Positions 7,391-25,091 of a stretch of DNA of 64,000 bases are shown here, one piece after another (position 1 is the first letter of the stretch; every line of letters begins with the position of its first letter). The stretch spans positions 124,001 through 188,000 of the forward strand of contig JAYKXP010000010.1 of the NCBI GenBank assembly GCA_037176845.1, read 5' to 3'. The notes under the pieces were generated by a model, which was given only the letters and a program-made list of their open reading frames with translations, ran no database searches and was not told the origin of the DNA. Both the position numbers and the translations under genes were made by a program. This DNA is from Paramarasmius palmivorus (taxonomy: Eukaryota; Basidiomycota; Agaricomycetes; Agaricales; Marasmiaceae).

Positions 7391-7399
7391 GACTTGTTC
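7391..7399. repeat. left copy of candidate 9-bp target-site duplication
   Basis: GACTTGTTC at 7391-7399 is repeated directly at 25083-25091. The copies lie 21 and 22 bases outside the points where the inverted arms begin to match clearly. That symmetry supports a target-site duplication over chance. Confidence 0.6.
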
Positions 7400-9015
7400 G
7401 GATAGACGACTGTTACTAAACCCACGAAAATATGTGGAACGCGGCAGAAAAAAAATGTGAGCGGGCTCACATTCACACGCACTTGTACTGTATGTAAATA
7501 GAAAACAATGTCATCAGCGTCTAAACAAAGCCTCGTGGGAGGTTTCCCGGAACCGAGACCCTAAGAAAAACGAGTTTGACGGTGCTCGGGAACTGCCATC
7601 TTCAAATCTCTGTATAGAGCGGTTCTGGAGAACTGCAAACCATAGGGTGGGATTGGGGGCGTTGAAGGTACGTATCTGAATACTGACTCGATGAAATGGG
7701 ATTTTCACTCATTTACAGCTGTGATGGCGACGGTTCACTGGAACCGTTACTGACATGGTACCCTGAGGACAGTTCTCCAGAACCGCTGAACATTCGACAA
7801 CATCCTCCTCTCTACGCTATCTCTTTGATCCAAATACCACCCGATTCGATGGACTCCCTGATATATTCATCTGTTCAGACGCAGTTTCTGGGAACTGCAG
7901 CTACCTCTAAATATGGCTCGCGGTTCCGCAGGACTGGAGAAGAACAGGCGGTTCACCGGAACTGCATGCTAGCCCTCACTATACCTACCAAATACCCTTT
8001 CCCATTACCCAGAACCTCGAAACATGCGTCAACACAACCTGCAACTAACGCGGTCTCGGGGAACTACAGCTACCTTCCAGCAGTCTCCAGCAGTTCATGG
8101 GAACTGTCGTTACAGACAGAGGTCGGCAGTGGTTCCTGGGAACTACCGGTCGATTTAGTGGTTAATCATTCACCTTTCAATTGCCCTCGGCGGAATTCAT
8201 CAGCACTTCAAGTAGCCCAACGATACCTACCTCATCCGCACGGCGGTTTCAGGGAACTGTTCCTGACTCCAATCCTCTCTGGCAGTTCATGGGAACTGTT
8301 CTTACAGATAGAGGTCGGAGGTAGTTCCCGGGAACTGTCAGTCAGCTCATCATCGAGCCATTGGCGCCTTCATTACCGTACTCGATTCCTATCAGATCTC
8401 AAGTCGACAAGCGATACCCGCCTCACTCGCAGAGCAGTTTCTGGGAACTGCAACTGACATCTAAGCTGACCTGACGGTTCATGGGAACTGTCGTTCCAGG
8501 TGGAGGTCTTAGGTGGTTTCCGGGAACCGTCAGCTAGATTGACATTCCGTTGACCACATCTATATCATCCATGCTGGGGTCATGCGGAACATCAAGTAGC
8601 CCACCGGTACATACCTCGTCCTATATGCAGTTTCTGGGAACTGCCGCCAGCTGGATACTTGGGCGGTAGTTTCGGGGAACTGTTGCTTCAAGCAGAGGTG
8701 ACGAACAGTTCACGGGAACTGTCACCCAGCTCATCACTCAATGCTGTCACCTACGAAGAGGGCACCGTTGTTTTCGTCTGGTGGGATGGCTAGTACGCCG
8801 GGCTTGGGGGTGTTGGGGAACGGGAAGGAAACATACCACCACTTCATAGCAGTTTCCAGGAACTACCACCGACTTCCAGCTCCGTGGACGGTTCCCGAGA
8901 ACTGTCTGCAAGATATTCACCTAGCTTCCTTCTGCACCCATCTCACATGCTCAGAGCATTGCGCAAGGCAACCACTGCATTCTTGTTCACGCAGTTTCCA
9001 GGAACTGTTGGTGAC
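7400..9015 (+). repeat. left terminal inverted arm with palindrome array
   Basis: This arm is the reverse complement of about 23455-25082. It begins CCCACGAAAATATGTGG at 7421 after a loosely matching tip. It then contains about 24 short palindromes, on average one per 65 bp, such as 7541-7556, 7621-7636, 7770-7787, 7881-7900, 8094-8110, 8281-8300, 8321-8339, 8433-8451, 8514-8532, 8628-8645, 8706-8724, 8888-8906 and 8994-9012. The form is GTTYC, three to five bases, GRAAC, with flanking RYR/YRY bases often extending the match to 18-20 bp. Open frames across the arm translate the palindromes (for example ..GSSWEL.., ..SRELS..) and are not genes. Confidence 0.85.
7455..7472. repeat. 18-bp terminal palindrome (left end)
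   Basis: ATGTGAGC-GG-GCTCACAT, 55 bp from the proposed element end, is followed by a second half-site-like TTCACAC. The same palindrome is at 25009-25026 in the other arm. It differs from the array palindromes and may be a separate protein-binding site. Confidence 0.6.
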
Positions 9016-9108
9016 TTAGTCGCTGATGAACCACTGGAACTGTCACGTCACAGTAGCAGTGACACGGTGACAATCCCCCCAGAACTTCCCATACAACGAG
9101 TCATCATC

Positions 9109-10492
9109 ATGGACGACAATATCACCCAGCCCTTGCTCGATGGTAAGAGAGATATGTCCATTTAACATCAGAGCTCATTCAGGTTATTTAGACGTCTCGG
9201 GCACTCCTTTGCATATTCCAGATGCCCATGTCCAACACCTGGTGTCCCTCATCCGTGCAAATCTTGACAGTAAGCCCCATATGACGCCTCTATGGCCCCT
9301 CACGTACTTATGCAAGGTATTCCAGAGGTCCATTGGCACAATGGTCGAGTCAGGGCACATCAACAGAAGATTGAGCAGCATATGGAGCTTGTTGAAACAT
9401 CAACTAGAGATGCGGAGATGGCACTCGGTGTGTTCTCGTCACATATACCATGCTAAGCCTTGTTTAGTTCTTATACAGGTTCATTGCTTGAATACCTTTC
9501 AACACCGCTCGCGCTCCCTGAAGCACATGAATTGGATCTTGAGCGGTGAGAATCTTACGCGACAGCCTTGTCACGGCCGTCGACACCAGGAACGACATAT
9601 ACAGATCATTCATACGACAATTTCGTGCGAGGCGTTGATCTTACTCCCGGTGGAGGTCATGTAAAGAGTTTGGAAGACAGCGCTGACCCGGCAGCTCTGG
9701 ATACACGCACATCCAACAAGGCCATCCAAACTGAGGAATACCACGGCACCACAAACACAGCTCCCGCAAAAGGCCAATCCATTTTATTCAAGGGATCACT
9801 CTTTCAAACATTCTCTCGCACCGGTCCTTTGCATCCTTTTGCCTGCTCAGAGACTCCAGCCGTATCGAGCATCTCACGTGCCGCGCTACCCTCGTTACCT
9901 GAGCCTCAAGCACACCCAAAGACGAAGAATGCGAGATCAGCACTCCCTCTCAGCATGGAGCCTCCTAGAATTACAGCAAAGGGAAAAGAGAAGGAAAGGC
10001 AACAACCGCAACAGGCCTATCTAGTGCTAACCGGTCATGGAGACAGCATCTATCTCAATAGGTGTGTTCAATTGTGATTCAGTACTATTCCTACTTCTAA
10101 CGCTCCTTGGCTCCACTCAGGACACAAGCTAACAAAGTTGCGAAGGCCCAGGGGTGTATGACGCTTACATTCCTTAGTCAACATGATGCTCAACTGGCCC
10201 TCACCAGCTGCATTGCGTCGAAGCTCTTAGAATACCTTAGAGAAGTCGAGTACGAGAGCACCTGGTTTGCGGTGCTCAAAGGTACCAACCCAGGTGTCTG
10301 CCAGCGGTAACTCGATACATCTTACTCGTCATTCCCCAATATCTAACATCTACCTTCAGATCAGAACTGCTCCGACAGATTGGAAAGGAGCATCTGAAGG
10401 ATTTGACTAGTGATGATATTTTGCTTGCCTCCACAGAGCAGGAGGCCGAGGATATCTACTATGACTGCAAGCAGATGTATGAATCCGAGTAG
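9109..10492 (+). CDS. unknown element-encoded protein, multi-exon
   Basis: First gene inside the left arm, transcribed inward. ATG 9109 opens MDDNITQPLLDG. Phase-1 introns follow, and later exons read YLDVSGTPLHIPDAHVQHLVSL, then KIEQHMELVETSTRDAEMAL (probable coiled coil), GSLLEYLSTPLALPEAHELD, and a Pro/Ser-rich stretch with SLPEPQAHPKTKNARSALP. The end is built from 10120-10308 (..TQANKVAKAQGCMTLTFLSQ..) and a last exon ending YYDCKQMYESE with TAG at 10490-10492. The junction around 9545-9600 is unresolved because the simple donor/acceptor pair changes frame. No family is recognised. Position suggests an accessory gene of the transposon. Confidence 0.5.
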
Positions 10493-10863
10493 TTACCATC
10501 TTGTGCGAAATTTCCAAATATAGAAAATAGCCTTTGTTGTGACACGTCGTCAGGGTGTGATCATATACGTCACACGCTTCGGATGCTCTTGACTTCTTGC
10601 TGCGACCACGGTTTTCTGGAACTGTATCTATTCGACACAGTTCAGCAGAACTGGACTTCTCGGGAGACAAAAACCTACAAGGTCTTTGATCAGCGTGCGT
10701 CACAAATTTCTTTTTACCTGTCCTGTGGTACTTACGCTGTTCTCGCAGCTATTCCTAACCGGGAATGTAAAAAGGCATTACTCTTCGAGGGCAGTTCCCC
10801 TGAACTGTAACATGTATAAGGTAGTTCCCTTTACAGTGCCCGAGTCTAACTAACACGCATGTA
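10493..10863. promoter_or_regulatory. intergenic spacer with internal palindromes
   Basis: This spacer lies between the 3' ends of two convergent genes. It contains four sequences of the arm type: 10610-10626, 10636-10653 (ACAGTTCAGCAGAACTG-like), 10790-10808 and 10821-10840. They are the clearest group of the motif outside the arms. No gene is supported here. Confidence 0.45.
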
Positions 10864-13800
10864 CTACAGACCTCTCATTTTTCGAATGCGCATCCGATTC
10901 CACACCGACACGTAGTGTTTGATGAAGATAATGGCCCGGTTCTGTCGCATGTAACTGACAGGTTTTCGAATCCTCCCAATCCCACTATTTCCGCACTCTC
11001 CCGCACTCGAGTTTATCTTATCGACCTCTCCATCGACCTCTCCATGTGTAGACAAGAACGCCGCCGAAGAGCACTTTGTGTGACCTTTGGCATGGAACCT
11101 GTCAATCAGAAAATGTGTCTTCGAGAAGAACTCGGGCTCTCTTGTCATGCAATAGGGTCCCAAAGCGCATGCAAAGTCATATACTATGCGCCTTGGAGCT
11201 TTCGGCCAACGGGTAATCAAGGCGGAGAACACATCATTCCGACCTTCCCCCTTCGGGATACAATGAAAGCCATAGCAAATACTATGCTCACACCAGGCGC
11301 AGAGAAGACCACCAGTAAGGCGTCGTTCACCATAAGTGGAATAAAACTTAGAGCATTCACCACCTCTTTTCGCGTCTTTTTCAGGCTCCTTATCACCGGG
11401 AATCCTTGGGTATGACGGTCGCGTTCGAATCTGTGGTAGACCATAGTAGCAACCTGTCTGATTTTTAGGTCAGTTATAAGTTATCTGTGGCAAATTGGAT
11501 GCTGACACACCTCCTTCCAGTTGTCATTACAAGCTTTGCTATTTCGAATCTTCTCGAGGCTTGTGTGATCGCCCTGCATCAGCAAAGCCAAAACCTCGCC
11601 AGCACGTTGGGTAATCCACCGACACAAATTTACGACGACTTCCACATGGCAGTTTGTCCGAACGGCCTGCTCCACAACCTGCATGAGCGCCGGGACATCA
11701 ACAAGTAGCGAAGCATTCGCCACTGAAGGCTTCTCCACGAACCGCTTCAACGACTCTAACCCTAGCACATTGACCATTTGGAGTGCAGACTCATTTGCAC
11801 TCAACTGGACGTAGCTCATCAGCCTCCCCTTCCCATGTCATTGCTAATCCCATACCTGTTCAAACACCATTCGGTAACGACGCCGCACCCTCGAATCCTG
11901 CAATCCCGTCTCGGAACCGTAAATGGCTCCCAACGCCTTTGCGACTGGATCTGCGCCCACTGCCCGTAGCTCTTGTTCCAAGGAATGGAGTTCCGCACTT
12001 CTTTGCTCACGTTCGGAGGGAGAGACCGTCCCCTTGTCTCCCCACCTCTTTATCCAGCTTGCAAACTTGTCCCGCGTGCAAGGTCCCTTCGAATGACTGC
12101 CAGGTATCCACTGCAGACCTGGGTGACGGGTGCGATAACGTACCAAGGGATCAGGAGGAATTACTGTGGGAGGAGATAGCGTTTCTCGCAGGTGTCGCTT
12201 GGCAAAACCTGTTGTCACTCCGTCAAAAATCACCGTGTCTGGAGCTTCTCCACAGCTTGGGCATGACATATCACCTGCCATGTACTGCAGTGATGCAAAC
12301 GCAAACCAGGCCGACCGGAATAGATCCTCGCCGACAAATTTATCACCTCGACCTTCATATATCCTTGTCATAGATACCACGAACGCCGCAAATGGTGTTT
12401 CGCTACCAGTATAGCGGTTGGTGTAATCATCCAATAACTCATGTGTGAATAGCACAGAGTTGTTCAGGTTGAAAACACCCAATGCTCGTACATCCGGCCC
12501 AATAAAGCACTTCTGCACCGGCGGACAACTAGGGCAGCTTTGAACACAAATAATGTGTTTTCTTCGCCCCGTCAATGCATAGACCGTACACTCTCTCTGT
12601 ATAGTGGTCAGAAGAGGATTGAAGAACTGTTTTCCGCAGGCGCTTCGTGAAGTACTTTCAAGTGATAGCACCTCTGGCAGTGAGTCATTTGGAGAGGGAC
12701 GGGAATATAGTTGTGGATCCTCTGGCAAGCTAGCCCATGGCGGCGGCAAGATTGGCAGGTATGATATTGCTCGCTCATCTACTGAACTTGCATTTGCTGA
12801 GTCCACTGTACAGGAAAGTCAAACTCTGGATCACTTGACGCTTTTTGAAACACATACCCATGTACATTTCGGCTGCTTCATCCAGTCCGCCTCGTTCACC
12901 AGCCTCATCGTCCATCAAATCATCTGAATTGCCAACTATCATATCCAGCAATTGCTTGGATCTGCGTGCATGAGCACAGTGTGCGCCAGCGCACTTCACA
13001 CACATCCACTTGCCACCACCGACGTCTCGCCCTTCGTAAGTCACTATAGTACGACTTCGAATAGCATCTGATTGGTTGTCGTAGGCCACCGAGAATCGGT
13101 TTATCCACGTTTCATCATCTATCCCAATCATCTGTCGTCGGAAAAGCACCACTGCGCCTTCTTCAAAGTCTGTCAGTAATCTTTTTGAGAATGAATATTA
13201 CATTTGGTTTCTCACCTGCTTTCACAGCGTCTTCGTTCATGCGGAACCGCAGGTCCCTGAAGTCCTGATAGTACCTCTTATGGATACAACCCCCTTTTTT
13301 TCCATCTGGGCATAAACAACTTAGTTGAACTGCGGTCTCGCCATTTTTTCTGGCTTCAAGATGATAGAACGAGCCCTAAACACTGTGAGTTCTTCTGTAT
13401 AACAACTGGATTTCTATTGACTCACCGTTCCGCTTCTGTTTTCAGAATCAAATCCCTGGACAACATAGAGAAAGGTTGTAACCTGGACAAAGGTGATGTA
13501 TTGCTCGTCAACAAGGTGCACAAACTCGTTGTATGCATCCTCGTCATCTGCCTTCTCCGGATCAGCATCAGCACTCCCTGCCATATCAACCTCCGCAACC
13601 AAAAGAGACGTATCCTCCCAAGGCAAAGAGCATTCACCAGGGCCCGGTCCAGAAGTACACTGAGCTTGTACTTCGCCTTGATTAGGATCATCTGTCGTTC
13701 CAGACTTATTCCTTTGCCTTAGCGTGTTCTGTTTCCCCCTTCGACCTGGACAATGTTTCTTTTTCGGGCTTTTGATGGATTCTTTGCTGTGTCCTGGAAA

Positions 13801-13866
13801 CTTTTGCCGCTTTGGTGCCTCTTCTGGACATGGCTCCAATACCCAGGACCTTTTTGACGATGCCAT
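10864..13866 (-). CDS. KDZ-family transposase with Cys clusters
   Basis: Six exons (13426-13866, 13216-13375, 12858-13169, 11856-12805, 11511-11804, 10864-11457) with introns of 46-53 bp splice into 916 codons without a stop. The N terminus is basic. A SWIM-like CxCx7CxH cluster lies at about residues 167-179 and a second cluster (CVKC..CAH) at about 257-267. CxC5/CxC6-like motifs follow (CVQSCPSC, then MSCPSCGEAPDTVIFDG). The C-terminal catalytic part reads LLCAWCEHSICYGFHCIP, then VYDFACALGPYC (Asp about 813), FLIDRFHAKGH (Asp about 838) and NSSAGECGNSG (Glu about 873). This is the DDE-like set expected of a KDZ recombinase that cuts and joins the element ends. All key residues are present, so the gene looks functional. 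Its start lies 107 bp from the divergent gene at 13974. Confidence 0.92.
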
Positions 13867-13973
13867 TGCTCGTCACTCAACTGCTATTGGTTTCTCGATA
13901 TTCATGGATGACTAAGCAAGCATTTACTTGTACACGCCACGCTTCCTTGCTCTTCGCCTCTTGTCCGCTCGCC

Positions 13974-15345
13974 ATGGCCAAAACCTCAAACGCTTGCATT
14001 GATCCTGACACCGGGAAACCTTACCGTATGTGTCGGAAATGCGGTGATTCAACACCTCCTCACCCGATGAAGCACTGCACAACGTATAGGCGTCCCGTCA
14101 AACAAAAGGTATACCATTTCGCTTTTGAGGACTGCCACTGACGTATAAGTATTCACAGCCCGGCCAGATTGCAGAAACGGACGCATCTACAGTACCGGGA
14201 CCGGTGTCCCCACAGAGCGAACCTTTGGCTCTGGATCAAGTACGCCATATCAAGAATTTTCACGTGCCATGGCTCACTCTATTACCAGGACAACGCAGGA
14301 ATTCCAACTGAAGCCGCAGTTGACCAGACGTCGGAGACTCATACTGATGACCAAGGAACCTCAGTGAGTTTTTGGGCCAGTGTTGCAGTGATATCTCACT
14401 TAGCATAAAGTATTTTAGGTCGCGCCAGATGGCGTAATTTGTGTCCCTGGTTCGGAGGGCATCCCAGATAGCCTCATAGACCCTGCCCTCCGTGGTCCTT
14501 CCAGTGATAATGCGACCTCCGACAACAACAGCACACCTTTTCAAGTTACTGGCGTGGACACCCCTACATCTCCAGGGACTCCATCGTCGGAGCCGCTGGC
14601 GCTCTTCACGCCAAGCCTGTCGTCTACTCCGACCTCTTCCCTTGCGACATTTTCACCGAATTCCACCCCGAGTAGATCCCGGCGAAAGCGGCCAACCAAG
14701 GCAGATCCTTGCTATGGTGAAGTAGTTGGCGTGTACAGAGGTAACCGAGTACTCAGTATGTGCTTAAGTTTTTTTCTTCGGTATTGATCTCAACATCTCA
14801 CTACAGCTATACGTCGCACTCGACAGTCAACAGAGGAGAAGCTTCGAGCCAAGCGAGTGAAACAAGGGCAGGCCGACGGTCCAGACCTCGGAGTCAATAT
14901 TCCGAAAGTGTTCTACGACCGCACACGGTCCCTCGTAACTCAGGTGTGTTTATTTTCTGTACGATATGAACCCTGCTAAAGACTCCATTAGATGCATGAT
15001 CTCTCTGAGATTACGGGTTCGTGGCTCCATTTCAGCGCTCAGCACCCGACCGCCTCACAACCTTTCATCCATTACACATCTAAACGTCTGCGTACAGAGG
15101 GAGGAGAGTTGCTAGACAACCTCCATCAAGCCAATCACGAACTGTACCAGTCCCTGATGACAGCTCGGCGGTGCGACACCACACAACTTGCAGCACAATT
15201 GGCGAAGGGCATCGGACAAGCTTGCCGAAGTTGAGGCGGACGCTGAAGCAAAGGTGGCGGAGGCAACAGCTGCAAAGGAAGCGGCGGAAAAAACCGCTAC
15301 AGAGCTTCGGGCCATGTTGGTTGCAGCTGGTCTTCCTGTTCCTTA
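13974..15345 (+). CDS. Cys/His-knuckle and coiled-coil protein next to the transposase
   Basis: Divergent from the transposase gene, with a 107-bp shared upstream region. Exons 13974-14108, 14159-14239, 14289-14363, 14419-14755, 14807-14943 and one from 14992 splice cleanly. The N terminus has a small metal-knuckle-like CRKCGDSTPPHPMKHC. A Ser/Thr/Pro-rich region (PTSPGTPSSEP..) is followed by RSRRKRPTK and IRRTRQSTEEKLRAKR. The last exon reads LLDNLHQANHELYQ and reaches a stop at 15234. Immediately beyond, another frame encodes a strong coiled coil (KLAEVEADAEAKVAEA..) ending at 15345. I could not join the two with an intron, so a frameshift or an alternative 3' end is likely. No known family is recognised; DNA binding or oligomerisation is only inferred. 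Confidence 0.5.
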
Positions 15346-15762
15346 ATTAGAATAGAACCGTATTGTCACTATAATAACATATCCATTATCTGTGAATCAC
15401 TAATGTGGAAGGAAATATTGTCTGTACAATGCATGTTGCCCTGATGGGCCAGACAGTGAGAACAGCATTGATGTGGTGTAAGAGGGACAGTGGGTGAATG
15501 GACATTCGGTGGATTATGATGATTCCAGATATGGTACAAAGGTGGAGGCGAGAGTGGTGCCAAAGTGGGCGAAGGTAGCGGAGTTGCTGTGTTCTTGCGT
15601 GTTCTGTTATACAGGTCGTCAATTCAGAGACAAATGCTAAGGTTATTTCGTACGCACCGCTGGGTAGGCTTGCGATAACGAGGAGGGCATGCGTCTTTCA
15701 TCTGCTTTAGCCTGCAGATGTACCAATGGTCAAAAACATTTTGGAATAAAGGTCTCCAACTA
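15346..15762. other. spacer, no gene seen
   Basis: Convergent 3' spacer inside the element. Short open frames on the minus strand here have low-complexity His/Pro content and no support. Confidence 0.4.
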
Positions 15763-15985
15763 TTACCCCAATTCCTTTAGCTTGGAGCGATAGCGTCGCA
15801 TCCTCTCCCGTGCCTTCTCTCTGATACGATCTTCTTTGCTATAGCAGAATTATCAGAGAAAAAAATAGAACAAAACCTTGGAAAGAAAATTCACCCTTGA
15901 CTGTACATGGAATGTGGAGGGTTCGTCGTGTATAGGGATTCTTCTGAAGCTTGGTCGTCGGAGTTGGGTGACAAGAATGGTCACA
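15763..15985 (-). CDS. C-terminal exons of a small protein with a basic KARERMRRYR tail
   Basis: Two exons are visible. The upstream one reads SPNSDDQASEESLYTTNPPHSMYSQG. After a GTGAAT..CTATAG intron the last exon reads KEDRIREKARERMRRYRSKLKELG, with TAA at 15763-15765. Upstream, a TGA and missing splice sites stop me from extending the model. Minus-strand open sequence at 16150-16417 (MPDRALMVVPDKSKQKTLKK..) may belong to the same gene or to another. The tail resembles that of the neighbouring gene at 16779-17813. The gene may be degraded. Confidence 0.4.
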
Positions 15986-16778
15986 TGTGACTTTGCCTAT
16001 TGGCGCCTGGACCTTTGGAAAGCGCCCATTCCCAAGTTCCTCTCGGACTTGGTTTTTTTCACTGCTTGTACTGAATGATATCGATCTATAATGGGTGTAA
16101 TATATCTCCGTTCTTGCCTTAAACCCGCTACCTTCATCATGAGGATGTTGTTAGCACGTAGTGAATATCTTTGATGCGGACTCACCACGGCACTTGAACA
16201 AGGAAAGCGTTGAAAGATCAGGTATTTTATCTTGTCTAAATCTGCTACGATTACCACTGATGAGTATTGAATCTAGGAATGGAGGAGCGGTGAACGTCTT
16301 ACAAGTGTGGAAGCATCCTCGTGAGATGTGCATCACATCAAACTTCTTCAACGTCTTCTGTTTCGATTTGTCCGGAACCACCATCAGTGCTCTGTCAGGC
16401 ATAGTACACCCTTGCAAGGCTCCTGATGTTCAATCTCGTATGTTCATCCGGTTGAAGTTGGTGACAGGGATGGTCAAACACCAAGATATGGTCCACAAGA
16501 TACTATGATGCTAATGATTTGGTGAGATCTCAGTTCTTCGTTCGTTCATCCATTGTGTCAACACCCATTACGGGCAGTTCCCTCAACTACAAAGTACAGG
16601 AAATTGATAATATTCCCCATCCAGCAAGTATCGAGAAGACGGCCTTCATTAAGTAATGAGAAAGGAGCTTCAGGTTTCACGAATGCGGCGTAGTGAGTCC
16701 GCACAAAGTGTTGAGTGACATATTCATCATCTGAACAACCCTACTCTAGTCCTTTGACCACCTCCCTCACCTCATCCC

Positions 16779-17813
16779 ATGCGGCCAGTGTTTATGAAGA
16801 ATCGCGGACAACCACGAGCAAGCACACCCCTGCCACCCTCATCCCCTTTGTCACCTGAAGCTCGATCGCCTCCACAAACATCCGGAGAATGTGCAAATCC
16901 TTCTCATTTTTCGTTTGGGAAGTATTGGTGGCGCCGGAGTCCTTCTCCCACACTTTCCGTCGCCTCCTCCGATTCCGACCAGTCACTGATTAGTACGCTG
17001 TGGGACAAGATATATAAAGGTCGCGTCTTGGTTGGGGATTCAGATGGCTGGCGGTATGAATGGCGTGACGAGGTACACGATGAAATACACGACCAAAGCG
17101 TAAATCCAAACTCTACCGAAGCTGGAGACGACTTAGAGGTAGCCAATGAAAATCCTAGTGGGCATTGAAAGCTAAATCTCCCGCATTTGAGATACTGATT
17201 TCTATATTTCTAGCGACTGGCAAATCTCAATCCGATGGCAAGCAGAGTTCACGGAGATTGGATCCAATTAACGGTACGCTTTTAGATCCTAGCCCCCCCC
17301 TTCTGCCCTTACCATCCAGTTCAGGACATGTTTTCTATGGATCCCCCTCCGTATCGACACCTGCTACAATAGAGGCTAGGACGCCGCCGGCGCGGGTCAA
17401 CAGAGAGCCAGCTCAGGGTGGAAATCCAGTATTGACGTCAATCCGCCCAATTTCGCGAAGTTCGATCCAAAACGGTAAGCACCATTCAACAGGATATACA
17501 ATCGTTCGTTCACCATGACAATTCTTGTTAGGGTCTCCAAAAAGACGTCGGCTAACTACGGCGTCGGCAGACCGACGGCGGCTTTTGGACAAGGAGCGCA
17601 AGGCTCGGTGAGTGGTACCAAAGTTTCTTTAGAATGCTTTTAACATGATTAATTTCCAGGAAGCGAGCTCGAGACCCAGAAGCCATGAAGGCCAAACAAG
17701 CTGTCTACGCCGCCAACTACAGGGTCAAGAATCGCGAGGTGTTACAAGTAAAGGCGCGAGATTATCGTAGGAAACAAGCCCCAACAGGGCTTCTAACCCG
17801 AGCGTCTGGATAG
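16779..17813 (+). CDS. unknown basic-tail protein
   Basis: ATG 16779 begins a Pro/Ser-rich N terminus (TPLPPSSPLSPEARSPP) followed by FSFGKYWWRRSPSPTLS and an acidic stretch. Splicing from CCTA/GTGGGC to TTTCTAG/CGACTGG, then through introns before GGTCTCC and GAAGCGAG, gives a final exon KRARDPEAMKAKQAVYAANY then RVKNREVLQVKARDYRRKQ, with TAG at 17811-17813. The KAR-xx-RR tail resembles the gene ending at 15763 and suggests a nucleic-acid-binding helix. No family was recognised. The place inside the transposon suggests an accessory or cargo gene. Confidence 0.5.
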
Positions 17814-18182
17814 CACCGGGTTTGCCACTTACCACCACAAGACTTGACGTCTAAACGGGGTAGGCTACGCCATGTGGTGGCTATGCCATGTTACGCTTCC
17901 TTCTTTGTAAAAAAGACTGTTACACCTGAGCTTGAAGAACGAATCCATGCTTGCGACCCATTTCTGAGGTGAATGGGCCATCGAATTTCCCTTTTACATA
18001 TTTTTAGTCAGATTGAACACCAGAAAATATTTGTGTGCCAACGTAGAGCGGTGCCAATTCAGGGTTTGTTTGTGCCTCATCAGAAACAAATCCGGATTTG
18101 GACCCCCGCATATTTCTTCCTCTTACTCTCATTTCCGTCTCTTCCTCCACCTGATTCTTTCCACCTCAGCTTCTTCCTTTCC
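17814..18182. promoter_or_regulatory. upstream region of the long coiled-coil gene
   Basis: No coding potential. A pyrimidine-rich tract (about 18110-18180) precedes the ATG at 18183, as is common for fungal promoters. Confidence 0.35.
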
Positions 18183-21065
18183 ATGATGCGTCGCAGTACT
18201 AGACAAACTCGGGCAGTCCTCACTGGTAAATCTGGTAAGTTATTTATTTATTAGGCCTTTGTTGTTCTTGCTCATTGACTTTTGTGTAGAAGTGCCGTCC
18301 AACAAGTCTAAGGCAAAGGGTGTTCAAGGTGTGTACTGGTTCTATGTTCTCAAATAGTATATTGAAATTTGTGCTATGGATTTAGAGACGCAAGGGACCA
18401 GTAACAAAATTGAGCAGCCCAACGGCAAAGGTAGGTCGTCAACGTTTCCCGGCATCTCCCTTTTCTGACACGTCGCAGTTACCTTCAAGCCTATCTCGGT
18501 GCTTTATGAAGGTATATCAATTCGTTGCTATCCTAAGTCTCTATTTTTGCTAATCATTCGATAGACTTGCGCCACCTGAAAGCACAGGAAAGCGAAGTTA
18601 ACGCTGAGCTCGATGCCGCCACTGGCGCGGTAGCAGCTGCCGAACAGGCGCTCCAACAGGCGAAAAGCGCTTTCGACGCTAACAAGTCTTCGAAGAACCG
18701 CAAGGAAATGAAAGCTGCACAGATGTATTTGACTCGTGCAAAGAAGGATAGCAAGGACGTCACCAGGAGGGCAGGTAACCTGGAGAGTCAGATTACAAAG
18801 CTCAACAGAATAATTGGTAAGTGCCGTCGTCATTCTCCATCTTTGTTGTTTACTCACTTCTGTGGATTTTATCAGCCGAGCGAAAAGCTTCTGGTGAACA
18901 CGCTGACATACCAACGCTCGGGGACGACAGTGACCTGACAGACCTTGATGGTGAGTTACTTTTGAGTTCAGCTGTTGCTCTCTCTTATGTTATTTAATGT
19001 CTCACAGCACTAACTCAAATTTTAGACGACATTTCTCAGAACGAAACGGATCCTTCGCATGCATCGGCTGTAGACAAATCGTCGCTCAAGACTGCTGGCA
19101 AAGGAGGAGGCCGAATGCAGCAAGATGCTACAGGTGAGACGACTGACTTATGTAGGGTGCGATGGCTGATCAACGTTAAAAAATTCATCAGCACAGGACT
19201 CATCTACTTCGTCGGTGAATGCGTCATCGGGCCTTGAACAGGAGCCGCCTGCTAGTGCCACAGACGCAGTGTCTGTACCCGAAACGTCACCCACTCCGGA
19301 AACTATCATGCCGCCAGGTTCACCTTCCGTTATTCCATCGCCTGTTCCTGAGTCCACCGAATCACCTCCAAAGACTCTCACAGCTGTCGTTACTCAACAG
19401 AATCCGGAGTCCTCGGATGACAACCCCGTTCCTCAAACCGACCCACCTGCGTTCTTGTCGTCCACTACGACTTCACTTCCTAACAAAGTTCCCGACCCTG
19501 CTTCTTTGTTTACACCGGAACCATCACCGGAACCATCACAGCCCTCTCTCGAAGGACTACCCCAGGATCCTGCAACTTCCCCAACTCCAAATATTGCCCA
19601 GTCAAAGGCGTCTCTTAGTTCAGGGGAAGATGAGCTGGAACCTGAGTCTGGAATGGATACTCTGCGACCACCTAAGTGGTCCAAGACAAGGAAGCATCAC
19701 ATCATCGATTCAGATGGTGAAGGTCAGTGTTTCGGCATCGTTGATACCATTCATGACTAACGAAGCACGGTAGATCAAGCAGCGCCACAATCTGCAGACT
19801 CGAAGAAGGCCAAGGCCGCTAAAGGTTTGAGTACGATACTACACTCAATCAAAGCCTTACTGACGTCCCTGGATCTAGCTCCTCCTAAACAGACAAGGTC
19901 TCATAAACGAAAGGCTGCCGAAGACAACAGCGAGGAAACGACAGGTACTAGTTATGCAATATATAATTGTTTAATTCTTACTAAAAACACTTTATTTCTC
20001 CAGCCCCAAACAAGAGGGCCAAGCGTACTAAGGGTCAAGGCGAGGAAGAAGACAACGATGAATTGGTGGTTCTCAATGATGACGAACGTACGTGATTGTC
20101 TCTTAGGTTTGGGCGCCAGCTGATCATTGCCGTCACAATAGTACCTGTCAAACGCCGTCGAAGGAGGGATGCTGACAAGAGGCTCCTTCCTCCACCAGAT
20201 CTAACGGAGACATCTAGGTCCAACAAGATCAGTAAGTAAACTGTATCTGTAACTTTGTGAGTGTGCATTGACAAGGATATATAGAGAAGATTCGTGCTTG
20301 GCTCTCAAGGGCGATCAATGGTGTCGGACCTTCAGCTATCGAAGACGTCTCCAAGAGCTTAGGTATACGTACCCTGCTCTACGAGTCGGCATCCATTCTC
20401 CCGGAGCTGGTCACTACAGCAAGGGAGATAACGCTCGCGGCCATAGTGTCTGCCGAAGGTAATCTCATATGTCGGTATCACACAATAAGTGATAAGAGTA
20501 TGGATAAGCCGGGTGCCGTCGATGGGGATGACAACACCTTGCATGGACGACCTTGGCCTTGGATACACGCACCAGAGAAGAGATTGGCTCTGGATGCACA
20601 GGTAAAGGCGAAAGCTGCTGCCGCGGCAATGGAGGACTTGCCAGCGGATCCTGAACTCCTCACCAAGCACCACAAAACCCCCGGTTGGAAGATCGTGGAG
20701 TCACGAGGTGAGGATAAGACGGACTGCGGCTGCGATAAGGAAGATATGCTCCTCGAGCTACTCCTGTGGAAGACAGGAAAGCTCACTTCACCTACTTCTC
20801 CCTTGTCGACGACTGGCGAGCCGACTTTCTCACTCCCCGACAGCGAGCTCTAGTTTGTGCGCAATATCGAGAGGGTTCGTTACTCGATGTTGACGATCTT
20901 TATTCTATGGGTGTCGAGAACGGCCGCTGGGTTAAGCGCGACAAGCTCCATCATCGCCGTGTTCAGGCCGAACGTGCTCTCAAGATCATCGAGGCTGAGG
21001 GTGAGAAGGAGAAGGTAGAGGAAATGAAAGGAGACGCTGAGATTACCGCTGCCATGCATTCGTAG
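18183..21065 (+). CDS. long coiled-coil protein, introns uniformly phase 1
   Basis: Starts MMRRSTRQTRAVLTGKS at 18183. Small exons lead to a coiled coil (LRHLKAQESEVNAELDAATG to ITKLNRII, about residues 55-140), then an acidic part and a Ser/Pro/Thr-rich part (exon around 19194-19722). Lys-rich basic patches (TRSHKRKAAED, APNKRAKRTKGQ, VKRRRRRDADKR) follow. The C-terminal helical segment is KIRAWLSRAINGVGPSAIED and continues to VEDRKAHFTYFSLVDDW and EGEKEKVEEMKGD, with stop at 21063-21065. At least 12 introns are clear and each splits a codon after its first base. Basic patches suggest a nuclear protein. No known domain is recognised. Whether a stretch at 20458-20510 is intron or exon is unclear. 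Confidence 0.55.
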
Positions 21066-21447
21066 GGTAGATTTTTTTGGATAGAGTCTTAGACTGCGAA
21101 CTTGTACATATTGTAGATTGCAATGATTTCTTGTTGCCGCTTTTGGCGGATTTCCTACCGAGATTGTACCTGATGATACCAATTATAGTTGCCTATTGAC
21201 TAAGAATAAGACCTTGGAGTCATAATACTGATTTTCGTGAGTCTCTTGGATGGCTAACTGTACATAGGTACGACGATAACATCGGAACAAGATGTATATA
21301 CACAAGACATTATCCTACGCGTCCTTGACATTATCCCAGATAGTCCCCCATCGTTTCACCCCACAGCGTATCTGGGAGAACACGGGGCGAACTAGAGAGT
21401 GGTGTTGATTAGCGAAACATGACAACAGCAAATTAATGTAAGTAGAC
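21066..21447. other. convergent 3' spacer, no gene seen
   Basis: Lies between the ends of the coiled-coil gene and the F-box gene. An alternative splice from about 21452 (GTGAGT) to a CTCTAG near 21390 could extend the F-box protein into this spacer. Confidence 0.35.
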
Positions 21448-23017
21448 TCACATAGTGATGCTGAGCTCGCGACAGAAGCATTGAGAATGACCCTGACTGA
21501 AACATTGACACTGATTGACAATGCCGTTGCTCGCTTCTGATAATGTGTCCATGGAATCGGAGAACTCAGAATCAGAATCACTGTTCCGAGCACGATGCAT
21601 CAAATCCATCCATTCCTCCAGAGGTACTCGGGTAATAGTGTTTTGGAAAACACAATTGGGCGACGGATGGTTCAAGGTTTCGACGTCTGGGAAGTCGGAG
21701 AGATACACCTGAAGAACGGCAGGGTGTCGAATGAAGAACTGATTGAGGGAGAGCTGATAGAAGACGTTGAGATCTGTAGTACTCTGGTCCCATACTAGAG
21801 TCAACTGTGTCAAGTTCGGCAAACTAACCCAGTGAAAGAAGTCTGGGCCAACATGACCCCAATGATCCTTGTCGGTCACATGAAACGAGGTGGGCAGGGG
21901 TAGTCTGATTGGCTGGTGTCTGGTAAGATGCGGATGGGTGGTGTGGGCAGTTCCGCCTGCTTGCCATGTACCTGATCCGGAATCCAGCCCACAGACAAGG
22001 ATGACAGAGATCGAGGGCACTTGGGTCGCAGCCTGAAGCACGAACAAGGCAGTTCGGCTACTGCCTCGAACACGGAGAGTATTGACCGTAGGAGGAAGAT
22101 GATAGGAATGGTTCAGATTAGGAAGTTCCCAGCCGTCGACTGACGAGATGGAGACGTAAGTGAGGGGAATGCCGGAATTAGTGAAGATCTCCAAAAACGT
22201 GTCGAGTGAGGTAGTGCGGTTAAAATGAACTGACACCGATGTTAGCCGAAGGGGAGCAGGGAGGAACCTGGAGTTTTCGAAGATTGTGGCCACGACGTAT
22301 GAGTATCCAAGCACGGAGAAGCTTCTCCATGGCCTAAATTTGAGCAATGTCATCGTAGAACACTGAGACACTGGAACTGTGGATGGAAGCGGCGGATTGG
22401 GAATCTCTCGGTTGAGGAATTCGACTGTCACATCCAAGGGTAGTGATGCGGAGAGGGAAAGGAGTTTGGACACACGCTCAGAGAGGACGGCGAGATGACG
22501 TGGACAAGTGACAAGTCGGCGAACATGTATGGTGCGAAAGAGGTTAGGTTGACTGAATACAATGGACCGGAATTTACGAGATAGTCGGGCGATGATGGTG
22601 ATCTGGGGACAATATATGGCGGGGGCCAAATACGGTCCTCGACCGAAATCATCGAGTCGAACAGCGGGGACAGCCAATTTCACAATATGTGCTGTAATCT
22701 CCGGCGGACTACGATGGAAGATGGACTTGAGTCCCTCGATACTGCGTCGATACTGACGAAGTGTGTCACGTAGGTGTTTGTAGTTGCTGTCGCTGAGGTC
22801 CCCATAAATATACGCATGGTTAATCCAAAATGGTGCAGTCGCAGTCCTATCGAGCTCCTGCTCGAGGTAGGCTTTTACGACGTGCCAGTTCCCGGTGCCA
22901 ACACTGAGAAAATTATCAGGTGGGAGAAGAGAAAGAGAAAAAGAGGACTTACTAAGGAAGACCAGGGAGTGACTCGACGAAGTGGATGAGGAAATTGGTA
23001 CTAGGGACGGTTTCCAT
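21448..23017 (-). CDS. F-box/LRR-like protein carried inside the element
   Basis: ATG 23017 starts METVPSTNFLIHFVESLPGLP. A 49-bp intron (22904-22952) joins it to a long exon ending at 21448. The N terminus reads LEQELDRTATAPFWINHAYI and then SIFHRSPPEITAHIVKLAVP, a degenerate F-box. It is followed by leucine-rich segments (LRLTSVSVHF, PLTYVSISSV, LPNLTQLTLV) typical of the large agaricomycete F-box families. Such proteins recruit substrates to SCF ubiquitin ligases. The reading frame is intact. It looks like host-type cargo, because F-box genes are common elsewhere in this window (28097, 38937, 46298). Confidence 0.6.
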
Positions 23018-23078
23018 GAGGAGAGCTGAGGTGATGATGATGGTTCGTTGTAGAGGAGAATATGACGAGAATTGAGGT

Positions 23079-23086
23079 ATTTATAA
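23079..23086 (-). promoter_or_regulatory. TATA box of the F-box gene
   Basis: TATAAATA on the minus strand, 62 bp upstream of the ATG at 23017. Confidence 0.45.
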
Positions 23087-23140
23087 GGTATCGAGACTAG
23101 AAAAGATATAGAGGAGAGCAGTGTGAGGACGTGTCCATAT

Positions 23141-23226
23141 GCGCCTGTAGTGTAGTGGGAACATACCGTGTTACTGAGCTTTCAATGTGAAGTAAGCGGG
23201 TGCAGGTTCGAATCCTGCCAGGTGCG
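23141..23226 (+). tRNA. tRNA-like sequence (probable pseudo-tRNA or tRNA-derived SINE head)
   Basis: An 86-base sequence shows a 7-bp acceptor stem (GCGCCTG with CAGGTGC), an A box TAGTGTAGTGG at 23148-23158, and a perfect B box GGTTCGAATCC at 23205-23215 inside a 5-bp T stem (GCAGG/CCTGC). The anticodon arm does not fold normally. CTTTCAA could be a Glu-type loop but has no flanking stem. TTACT..AGTAA can pair but leaves an oversized D arm. An intron would be needed for a standard molecule. I therefore do not assign an amino acid. It lies between the F-box gene and the right arm. Confidence 0.5.
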
Positions 23227-23454
23227 TGGCCTTCGCCGCGCCGAGTGTCTGAAAACTCTAGGAGGTTGGTAACCTCCAGGAGTGAGTACGACACTCGGCG
23301 TTGGCGGGGACCTTTTGATATATTTTTTATCGGTTAGAGCAAGAGGCTGAGAGATGGAGCGATGAGAGCAAATACTGCCATAGGTGTGAGGAAGGGACAG
23401 TTCCTGGAAACTGTGTCGGGTGGCACAAGTTCGCAGGTATGTGGCTCACGTGAC

Positions 23455-25082
23455 CAGGAGTTCAGTTCCCGGAAACTGCCTGTGAACAAGGATACAGTGG
23501 TTGCCTTGCGCGATGCTCTGAGCATGTGAGATGGGTGCAGAAGGAAGCTAGGTGAGTATCTTGCAGACAGTTCTCGGGAACCGTCCACGGAGCTGCAAGT
23601 CGGTGGTAGTTCCTGGAAACTGCTATGAAGTGGTGATATGTTTCCTTCCCGTTCCCTAACACCCCCAAGTTCGGCGTACTAGCCATCCCAACAGACGAAA
23701 ACGACGGTGCCCTCGTCATAGGCGACAGCATTGAGTGATGAGCTGGGTGACGGTTCCCGTGAACTGTTCGTAAACTCTACCTGAAGCAACAGTTCCCCGA
23801 AACTACCACCCTAGTATCTGCCCAACCGCTGGCGGCGGTTCCCAGAAACCGCACGTAAGTACGAGGTATGTATCGATGGGCTACTTGATATTCCACATGA
23901 CCCATGTGATGATGAAGATGCAGTTGACTGAGTGACAATCTAGCTGACGGTTCCCGGAAACCACCTAAGACCTCCACCTGGAACGACAGTTCCTATGAAC
24001 CGTCAGATCAGCTTGGGTGCCAGTTGCAGTTCCCGGAAACCGCTCTGCGAGTGAGGCGGATGTCGCTTGTCGATTCGAAATCTGATGTTAATCGAGGATG
24101 GTGGTGAAGGTACCAACGGCACAGTGATGAGCTGACCGACAGTTCTCGGGAACTACCTCCGACCTCTATCTGTAGGTACAGTTCCCATGAACTGCCAGAG
24201 AGGATTGGAGTCAGGAACGGTTCCCTGAAACTGCCGTGCGGATGAGCTAGGTATCGTTGGGCTACTCGAAGTGCCAACAAATTCCACCAAGGGCGATTGA
24301 AAGGTGAATGGTTGACCATTGGTTCAACTGGAAGTTCCCAGGAACCACCGCCGACCTCTATCTGTGACGACAGTTCCCATGAACTGCTGGAGACTGCTGG
24401 GAGTTGGCTATAGTTCCCCGAAACCGCGTTAGTTGCAGGTTGTGTTGGCGTATGTTTCGAGGTGCTGGTAATGGGAAAAGGTACTTGGCAGGGTGTAGAT
24501 GATGACTAGCATGCAGTTCCGGTGAACCGTCTGTTCTTCTCCAGTCCTGCAGAACCGCAAGCCATATTCAGAGGTAGCTGCAGTTCCCAGAAACTGCGTC
24601 TGAATAGATGAATATATCGGCGAGTCCATCGAATTAGGTGTTATTTGGATCGAAGAGGTAGCGTGGAGAGGAGACTGGTTGTTGAGCGTTCAGCAGTTCT
24701 GGAGAACTGTCCTCAGGTTATCGTGGCAGTGACGGTTCCAGTGAACCGTCGCCATCCCGGCTGTGAACGAGTGAGAATCCCATTTCATCGTGTCAGAATT
24801 CGGATACATACCTTCAACACCCCCGATCCCACCCTATGGTTTGCAGTTCTCCAGAACCACTCTATACAGACCTTTGAAGATGATGGCAGTTCCCGAGCAC
24901 CGTCAACTCGTGTTTCTTAGGGTCTCGGTTCCGGGAAACCTCCCACGAGGCTTTGTTTAGACGCTGATGACATTATTTTCTATTTACATACAGTACAAGT
25001 GCGTGTGAATGTGAGCCCGCTCACATTTTTTTTCTGCCGCGTTCCACATATTTTCGTGGGTGTTTGCTCCAGCGGCTGCCCC
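23455..25082 (-). repeat. right terminal inverted arm with palindrome array
   Basis: Reverse complement of 7400-9015. The inner edge fades at about 23440-23470, although a few palindromes continue to 23401. Palindromes include 23570-23588, 23754-23772, 23837-23854, 23947-23965, 24025-24042, 24139-24157, 24178-24196, 24369-24387, 24582-24599, 24693-24711, 24732-24750 and 24886-24904. Both the number (about 24) and the spacing mirror the left arm. Confidence 0.85.
25009..25026. repeat. 18-bp terminal palindrome (right end)
   Basis: Counterpart of 7455-7472; the two-base centre is CC on this strand, as expected of an inverted copy. Confidence 0.6.
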
Positions 25083-25091
25083 GACTTGTTC
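25083..25091. repeat. right copy of candidate 9-bp target-site duplication
   Basis: GACTTGTTC, identical to 7391-7399 and in the same orientation, immediately outside the proposed right end. Confidence 0.6.

Follow-up and report, generated by a model that had tools for sequence, protein, structure and literature searches.

We examined a 64,000-nucleotide window of the Paramarasmius palmivorus genome (positions 124001-188000 of contig C10, in an assembly of 68.3 Mb in 393 contigs) and found that positions 7399-25082 of this window (17,684 bp) hold one copy, here called W, of what is by its sequence an autonomous-looking family of cut-and-paste DNA transposons of the KDZ superfamily. W is bounded by two distinct tips and 8-bp target-site duplications (TSDs); its long inverted arms enclose a gene for the transposase and four or more other conserved genes. 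Relatives of about 18 kb, whole or partial, are present at several other sites in the genome and are named below by contig (C47, C5, C34, C57, C179 and so on); the complete copies measure 17,684 (W), 18,458 (C47), 18,061 (C5) and 18,819 bp (C179), placing the family at 17.7-18.8 kb. We hold it very likely that, taken as a whole, this is a KDZ transposon family in which recombination between the arms inverts the interior while a conserved set of extra genes is kept. A first-pass annotation of the window had already proposed a KDZ-type transposon that is complete and has long inverted arms, and the relatives elsewhere confirm its ends. What goes beyond that annotation is that there are two tip types, that the interior lies inverted in some copies, that the arms evolve in concert and that their palindromes are phased at 39 bp.

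The ends of the element were defined by comparing copies. Two kinds of tip, each 28 nt long, were observed: L tips start with CGGATAG and R tips, read inward, with GGGGCAG, and both reach CCCACG at about base 23-28. A 9-bp direct repeat, GACTTGTTC, had been described around W and is present on both sides, but the comparison of five copies led us to reject it as the duplication, the ninth base being part of the left tip. A C precedes GGATAG in all eight left tips (W, C47, C34, C284, C199, C5, C179 and C112), whereas the base following the right-hand duplication is C in two of five copies (W and C5) and T, T and G in the other three. Because this C is constant in left tips but variable after the right duplication, the TSD is 8 bp long, GACTTGTT, and not 9. 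The first-pass annotation had suggested looking for further copies that share these ends but lie in different flanking sequence; such copies were found, each with its own duplication: exact 8-bp repeats, all different, flank C47 (CAATTACG), C5 (CGTCTGCG) and the C34/C57 copy (CTGATGGC), and seven of eight bases agree in C179 (CAACTTCG and CAACTTCA). The C34/C57 copy is split between contig 34, which holds the L end (C34:9298), and contig 57, which holds the R end (C57:26907); since both ends carry the same 8 bp and their arms are 99.2% alike over 1534 bp, they probably belong to one insertion. The left arm on C57 is broken, perhaps through a later insertion or an assembly break. Single tips with no match to gene C (Table 1) nearby were seen at C112:143861 (L type) and C19:100227 (R type), and are perhaps short non-autonomous derivatives or remnants.

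Tips and arms were then compared for 14 ends from 10 loci, using the 28 nt of the tip and bases 29-400 (372 nt) of the arm. Tips group by type, with 68-100% identity among six L tips, 82-100% among seven R tips and 46-54% between L and R. Arms group by element: over bases 29-400 the L and R arms of the same copy are 93% (W), 97% (C47), 100% (C34/C57), 99% (C179) and 65% (C5) identical, as against mostly 38-80% between elements, the exceptions being C47/C284/C199 (93-100%) and the R ends of C5 and C227 (86%). The arms of about 1.6 kb reported earlier are present in W, where they are joined in a single blastn alignment. Their described difference of a few percent is right for the outermost 157 bp (99% complementary) and not for the arm as a whole (89.4%), identity being patchy and falling to 86% elsewhere. 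Longer within-element alignments gave 97.75% over 1778 bp in C47, 100% over 660 bp in C193 (left arm incomplete), 99.6% over 243 bp in C57 (left arm broken) and 72% over 241 bp in C5, as well as 100% over 1144 bp in C223 and 92.1% over 1024 bp in C179, both cut by the end of the fetched stretch. On these comparisons, recombination probably homogenises the arms and spares the tips. Divergence between arms homogenised within one element does not date the insertion, and the youth ascribed to W cannot be read from it. An 82-bp piece of the right arm (23653-23734) matches one other place, C20:383729-383810, at 91% with the rest of the arm absent there; it may be a captured host fragment.

The orientation of the interior was read relative to the tips, the direct arrangement being that with gene A beside the L tip (as in W) and gene F beside the R tip (as in C57). 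Three copies are direct (W, C57 and C284) and nine inverted (C47, C193, C179, C5, C227, C199, C11, C42 and C140); C11, C42 and C140 were assigned from match positions and strands alone, and C284 and C199 from their L ends only. The count builds on a search with the R-tip pattern, which at up to three mismatches hit 24 places (7 for the backward control). The 13 places with three mismatches were excluded, as was C19:100227, one of the 11 with at most two, for want of a nearby gene C; the 10 remaining, with C284 and C199, make up the 12. Four of the excluded places lie less than 20 kb from a gene C match on the element side; of these, C4 would be inverted and C19:638627, C280:28165 and C30 direct. 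C284 and C47 are 99.89% identical over 1775 bp of L tip and arm, and the interior beside the L arm of C284 is the one found beside the R arm of C47 (97.95% over 2631 bp including arm). In a tree of gene C proteins, a clade of W, C57 and C193 was supported (100/97), with its branching order left open and both orientations inside it. Since C284 and C47 differ and the W/C57/C193 clade is mixed, at least two inversions are needed. A label test on the tree gave two changes against a shuffled mean of 1.9, that is, no clustering of orientation and no added support. The simplest cause is that the arms recombine homologously, as a crossover between inverted repeats flips the enclosed segment and leaves the tips unmoved. 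Such recombination appears to explain best both the likeness of the arms within an element and the occurrence of both orientations.

The transposase is encoded by gene B. As previously described, it splices into a long open reading frame, with 910 codons in our model instead of 916, and the expected acidic residues are in place: D492 is invariant, and D797 and E857 are conserved at 90% or more, among 21 aligned relatives (P0001 numbering). The CxC cysteine cluster was recognised in the W protein as a CxC4 match (PF18717, E 2.5e-42), and all 21 relatives have CxC4. The KDZ profile PF18758 was matched at E≤0.01 by 14 of the 21 (best 2e-6), and on these profile matches the protein belongs to the KDZ superfamily through its relatives, not through its own PF18758 score. 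The terminal inverted repeats (TIRs) and short TSD of the superfamily were also found, as long inverted arms and an 8-bp TSD. Related transposases number at least 195 at E≤0.001, and the 120 listed are mostly from Agaricales; the best matches are annotated P. palmivorus proteins, including VNI00_003811 (97% over 72% of the query), and an independent NCBI model exists for the transposase (P0002). At least 178 PF18758 matches were counted in the assembly (150 of 365 candidates scored); P. palmivorus has several KDZ lineages besides the W family.

Five spliced models were built in W, and translated segments that match other copies form a collinear series. The first-pass annotation had noted at least four further genes, and four more spliced models together with shorter conserved stretches were indeed obtained (Table 1). 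Genes A, C, E2 and F have no known domain above the Pfam cut-off. Gene C is placed divergently beside the transposase gene; its Cys/His cluster reads CRKC...HPMKHC, and its C-terminal part, with a coiled coil, is conserved. Independent NCBI models support genes C (P0121, 360 aa, 88% identity) and F (P0140, 98%). Selection was assessed by the method of Nei and Gojobori, comparing W with C193, C57, C223 and C47. Ratios for the other four models are listed in Table 1, and gene C gave 0.08-0.13 against three copies (dS being saturated for C47); bootstrap intervals, where computable, were all below 0.4. The additional genes had been described as passengers, a term that does not suit genes recurring collinearly, under purifying selection, in other copies. 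Because they are collinear in the copies and have dN/dS values of 0.07-0.25, the five genes are core genes of the family and not random cargo. Gene C relatives number 19 (16 from P. palmivorus, one from Moniliophthora perniciosa, one from M. roreri and one unnamed), and those of gene F at least 7, all from P. palmivorus among the matches listed. The 120 listed transposases include ten from P. palmivorus, and eight of these have a gene C match at a neighbouring locus tag, the two without one being VNI00_018759 and VNI00_008973. Within the reach of these searches, the transposase occurs widely, and the gene set around it appears to be a feature of one lineage.

The identity of gene F as an F-box gene, proposed in the first-pass annotation, is backed weakly by its UniRef name; the W protein has no Pfam F-box match at E≤1, and PF00646 was found in one of seven relatives, weakly (E 0.096). 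Its structural model, of low confidence (mean pLDDT 52.6), contains strand-helix repeats and gave weak F-box/LRR matches in Foldseek (best E 0.0056). No Foldseek match at E≤0.001 was obtained for the models of genes C (mean pLDDT 52.2) and F, and profile searches of PDB with these two genes gave no match below E 0.1. The putative gene D is conserved over 15627-15776 in five other copies and over 15766-15849 in seven. Two short conserved basic peptides, belonging to two uncertain genes, are alike in style (15766-15849, KARERMRRYRSKLKE; 17649-17810, KQAVYAANYRVKNREVLQVKARDYR). The tRNA-like sequence reported earlier was recovered between gene F and the right arm and shows no clear anticodon. The idea that it is unique to W was ruled out by a relative of 88 bp at the same place in C57 (83%, not called a tRNA), the only one apart from 20 bp in C223. 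Just past it, a strong imperfect hairpin was noted by eye at 23241-23302 (GCCGAGTGTC ... GACACTCGGC). A tRNA-Val gene in C284 and C227 is unrelated to the element and lies in a different repeat, common to C284:1-3000 and C227:3562-6543 (91.6% over 2824 bp).

The arms are loaded with palindromes, as the first-pass annotation had pointed out. The core GTTY-N4-RAAC occurs 20 times in each 1592-bp arm of W, where order-1 Markov shuffles predict 0.10 and 0.18, and lies within an 18-bp palindromic consensus, RCRGTTY-N4-RAACYGY. Outside the arms, 6 matches were counted in the interior (1.19 expected by shuffling) and 1 and 5 in the flanks, while the arms of other copies have 8-30. Exactly 39 bp separates 54 of 115 successive motifs at six ends, the next class being 113-115 bp; these spacing classes amount to motif triplets with a period near 191. 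In three comparisons between elements, half-sites are conserved at 81-86%, versus 52-65% in the 4-bp centre and 49-57% outside the motif, in alignments that are uncertain for arms so repetitive. Genome-wide, CAGTTCCCGGGAACTG with up to two mismatches is found 98 times per strand, compared to 31 for the backward control. The phased half-sites would be binding sites of a protein of the element, most likely the transposase or the gene C product.

Table 1. Features of the W element, in window coordinates.
Feature	Position	Strand	Evidence
Left target-site duplication, GACTTGTT	7391..7398		Identical to 25083-25090; 8-bp length from five-copy comparison
L tip, 28 nt, starts CGGATAG	7399..7426	+	Left tips elsewhere agree with it; R tips differ
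Left inverted arm	7420..9007	+	89.4% identity to right arm, 1605 columns
20 palindromic motifs RCRGTTY-N4-RAACYGY, many 39 bp apart	7542..9005	+	Motif count
Gene A, 347 aa spliced, no known domain	9109..10492	+	dN/dS 0.17-0.25 against 4 copies
Gene B, KDZ-type transposase, 910 aa spliced, CxC4, D/D/E	10864..13866	-	dN/dS 0.07-0.09
Gene C, 315 aa spliced; N-terminal Cys/His cluster, C-terminal domain and coiled coil	13974..15346	+	
Gene D?, short conserved coding-like stretches, model uncertain	15627..15849	-	Relatives in other copies
Gene E1?, conserved coding-like stretch, model uncertain	16758..17165	+	6 other copies
Gene E2, 625 aa spliced, no known domain, 3' part best conserved	18186..21065	+	dN/dS 0.23-0.24
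Gene F, 525 aa spliced, UniRef name F-box	21331..23017	-	dN/dS 0.16-0.20
tRNA-like sequence	23141..23226	+	Rfam tRNA, 43 bits
Right inverted arm	23463..25061	-	Pairs with left arm
20 palindromic motifs, right arm	23570..24939	-	Motif count
R tip, 28 nt, starts GGGGCAG read inward	25055..25082	-	Comparison of tips
Right target-site duplication, GACTTGTT	25083..25090		Matches left duplication

Several observations weigh against this account of the family. A TSD was obtained for 5 of 11 regions examined (6 if C34 and C57 are counted separately) and was not recovered for C193, C199, C223, C227 and C284; C223 has arms and no recognisable left tip, and none was found in a further 1,100 bases on the right. 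The L tip of C5 starts with CGGATAG yet resembles R tips (64-68%) more than it does other L tips (54-61%), and the arms of the same copy are just 65% alike, its R arm being nearer to that of C227. The PF18758 score of the W transposase, 18.4 bits (E 0.0019), lies below the Pfam cut-off of 26.6. The gene models were selected with a score under which synonymous differences count in favour, and the dN/dS values are biased low as a result. An assembler can be misled by inverted arms that are nearly identical, and the orientation of C47, C284 and C193 rests on the assembly. The empty allele that the first-pass annotation had hoped for is absent from the P. palmivorus assembly: searching it with 1-kb flanks returned no second full-length match, only short ones (one of 195 bp for the left flank, 15 of 41-149 bp for the right). 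As a whole, that annotation was right about the transposon, its long inverted arms and the existence of other copies, while its 9-bp TSD and its passengers needed correction.

The likeness of the arms could also arise if, whenever it transposes or is repaired, the element copied or rebuilt one arm from the other, for instance through a fold-back or hairpin intermediate, instead of by occasional recombination. Within-element identities of 93-100% in four of five pairs, the perfect identity in C193 (660 bp) and C223 (1144 bp) and the position of the C284 switch, exactly at the inner end of the arm, would all suit such copying. However, the tips are not copied with the arms, the range from 99% (outer 157 bp) to 86% along the W arms has the patchiness typical of gene conversion tracts, and C5 combines an intact TSD with arms 65% alike, so we think this mechanism unlikely. 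It seems decidedly unlikely as well that the assembler produced the opposite orientations in error, misled by nearly identical inverted arms. Long stretches of the arms are 97.75-100% identical in C47, C193 and C223, and an earlier study of M. palmivorus used Illumina short reads according to the available part of its text (PMC8581569), its assembly not being established as the same one. But a mix-up is improbable between the arms of W (direct, 89% alike) or C5 (inverted, 65-72%), C284 and C199 each have a single anchored end, inside one contig, and contigs of more than 1 Mb run through arms.

As for the gene content, neutral passengers captured once and merely carried along might well lack known domains, as A, C, E2 and F do at the Pfam cut-off, and might be confined to few hosts. 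The relatives of gene C come only from Paramarasmius, Moniliophthora and one unnamed record, and those of gene F, among the matches listed, only from Paramarasmius, against a transposase found across Agaricales. Set against this are the dN/dS values of genes A, C, E2 and F, which lie at 0.08-0.25 where the copies compared have a dS of at least 0.8, and the adjacency of gene C to most of the listed P. palmivorus transposases, and we give the neutral explanation little credence. To the idea that the arms are a segmental inverted duplication unrelated to the transposase, which the first-pass annotation had named as the finding that would undo it, we assign next to no probability: other sites, flanked by different 8-bp duplications, carry the tips and arms along with the interior genes, nothing was found in its favour, and the arms belong to the element. 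Recombination between the arms of a KDZ transposon with a conserved gene set is the account that we retain as very likely.

Large elements with several genes are also known from Pezizomycotina as Starships, which are very large and multi-gene, use a tyrosine recombinase and are not known to have long inverted arms. The W family differs in its DDE/D-type transposase and its TSDs, and no tyrosine recombinase (captain) was matched in Pfam at E≤1 by the five models. A likeness is also found to the elements KDZ1-3 of Cryptococcus neoformans, described in the available part of one report (PMC12810828) as having, for KDZ1, about 11 kb, 241-bp TIRs and 8-bp TSDs and, for KDZ2 and KDZ3, TIRs of 139 and 169 bp and TSDs of 4-8 bp. 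Both groups combine a KDZ transposase and a CxC zinc cluster with large size, long TIRs, 8-bp TSDs (KDZ1) and a basidiomycete host. As described there, the differences lie in arm length (about 1.6 kb versus 139-241 bp), in the cluster (CxC4 versus CxC1) and in size (17.7-18.8 versus 9.2-11 kb), and that part of the report contains no mention that we met of palindrome arrays, interior inversion or a conserved extra gene set. Kyakuja elements of Laccaria and other Agaricomycotina are, in the accessible text (Kojima 2025, PMC12730594), likewise KDZ elements that carry additional genes (TET/JBP), but have 7-bp TSDs, CA..TG termini and no TIRs, unlike the 8-bp TSD, CGGATAG/GGGGCAG tips and 1.6-kb arms of the W family. 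By its ends, the W family is not Kyakuja; none of the five spliced models matched TET/JBP in Pfam at E≤1, the D and E1 stretches being incompletely modelled. Zisupton and Dileera share the 8-bp TSD, the one character compared, according to the same partial source (PMC12730594). The arms of W are about seven times as long as the longest TIR in these published KDZ elements (139-241 bp or none), as far as the accessible texts describe them. The superfamily itself is known; in the accessible portion of the open-licence literature we met no KDZ element with an interior inversion, long arms of phased palindrome arrays or such a conserved gene set.

These results lead us to the following model. The CxC4 transposase, perhaps with the gene C product, would bind the phased palindromic half-sites in the arms and, by analogy with the KDZ family, cut at the asymmetric tips and make an 8-bp staggered cut in the target. 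Recombination between the inverted arms would repeatedly convert them to near identity, and an occasional crossover would invert the 14-kb interior with the two outermost tips unmoved, two steps for which the sequence evidence is strong. The other genes may be kept because copies lacking them persist or move less well, and could help transposition or protect against host silencing or protein quality control. The Cys/His cluster and predicted coiled coil of gene C would suit DNA binding and dimerisation, and gene F may encode an F-box/LRR adaptor, a role that its weak matches hint at and that would fit turnover of a host or transposition protein. A bolder reading, possible but on balance doubtful, is that W represents an invertible multi-gene machine with fixed asymmetric tips and with arms that are phased arrays of protein-binding palindromes kept alike by conversion; about six co-selected genes would flip, possibly helped by the element's own proteins, and orientation would be either a heritable switch or a by-product of end pairing.

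KDZ transposons are abundant in mushrooms and their mechanism is little known. In the W family the ends are clean and the TSD is exact, the candidate binding sites stand at a fixed spacing, and the need for the conserved genes can be tested. The contrast between its type-specific tips and element-specific arms tells apart what the transposase cuts and what recombination homogenises. With almost identical copies present in both orientations, inversion through the arms can be tested directly; inversions of this kind give rise to structural variation and are easily overlooked in assembly or gene annotation.

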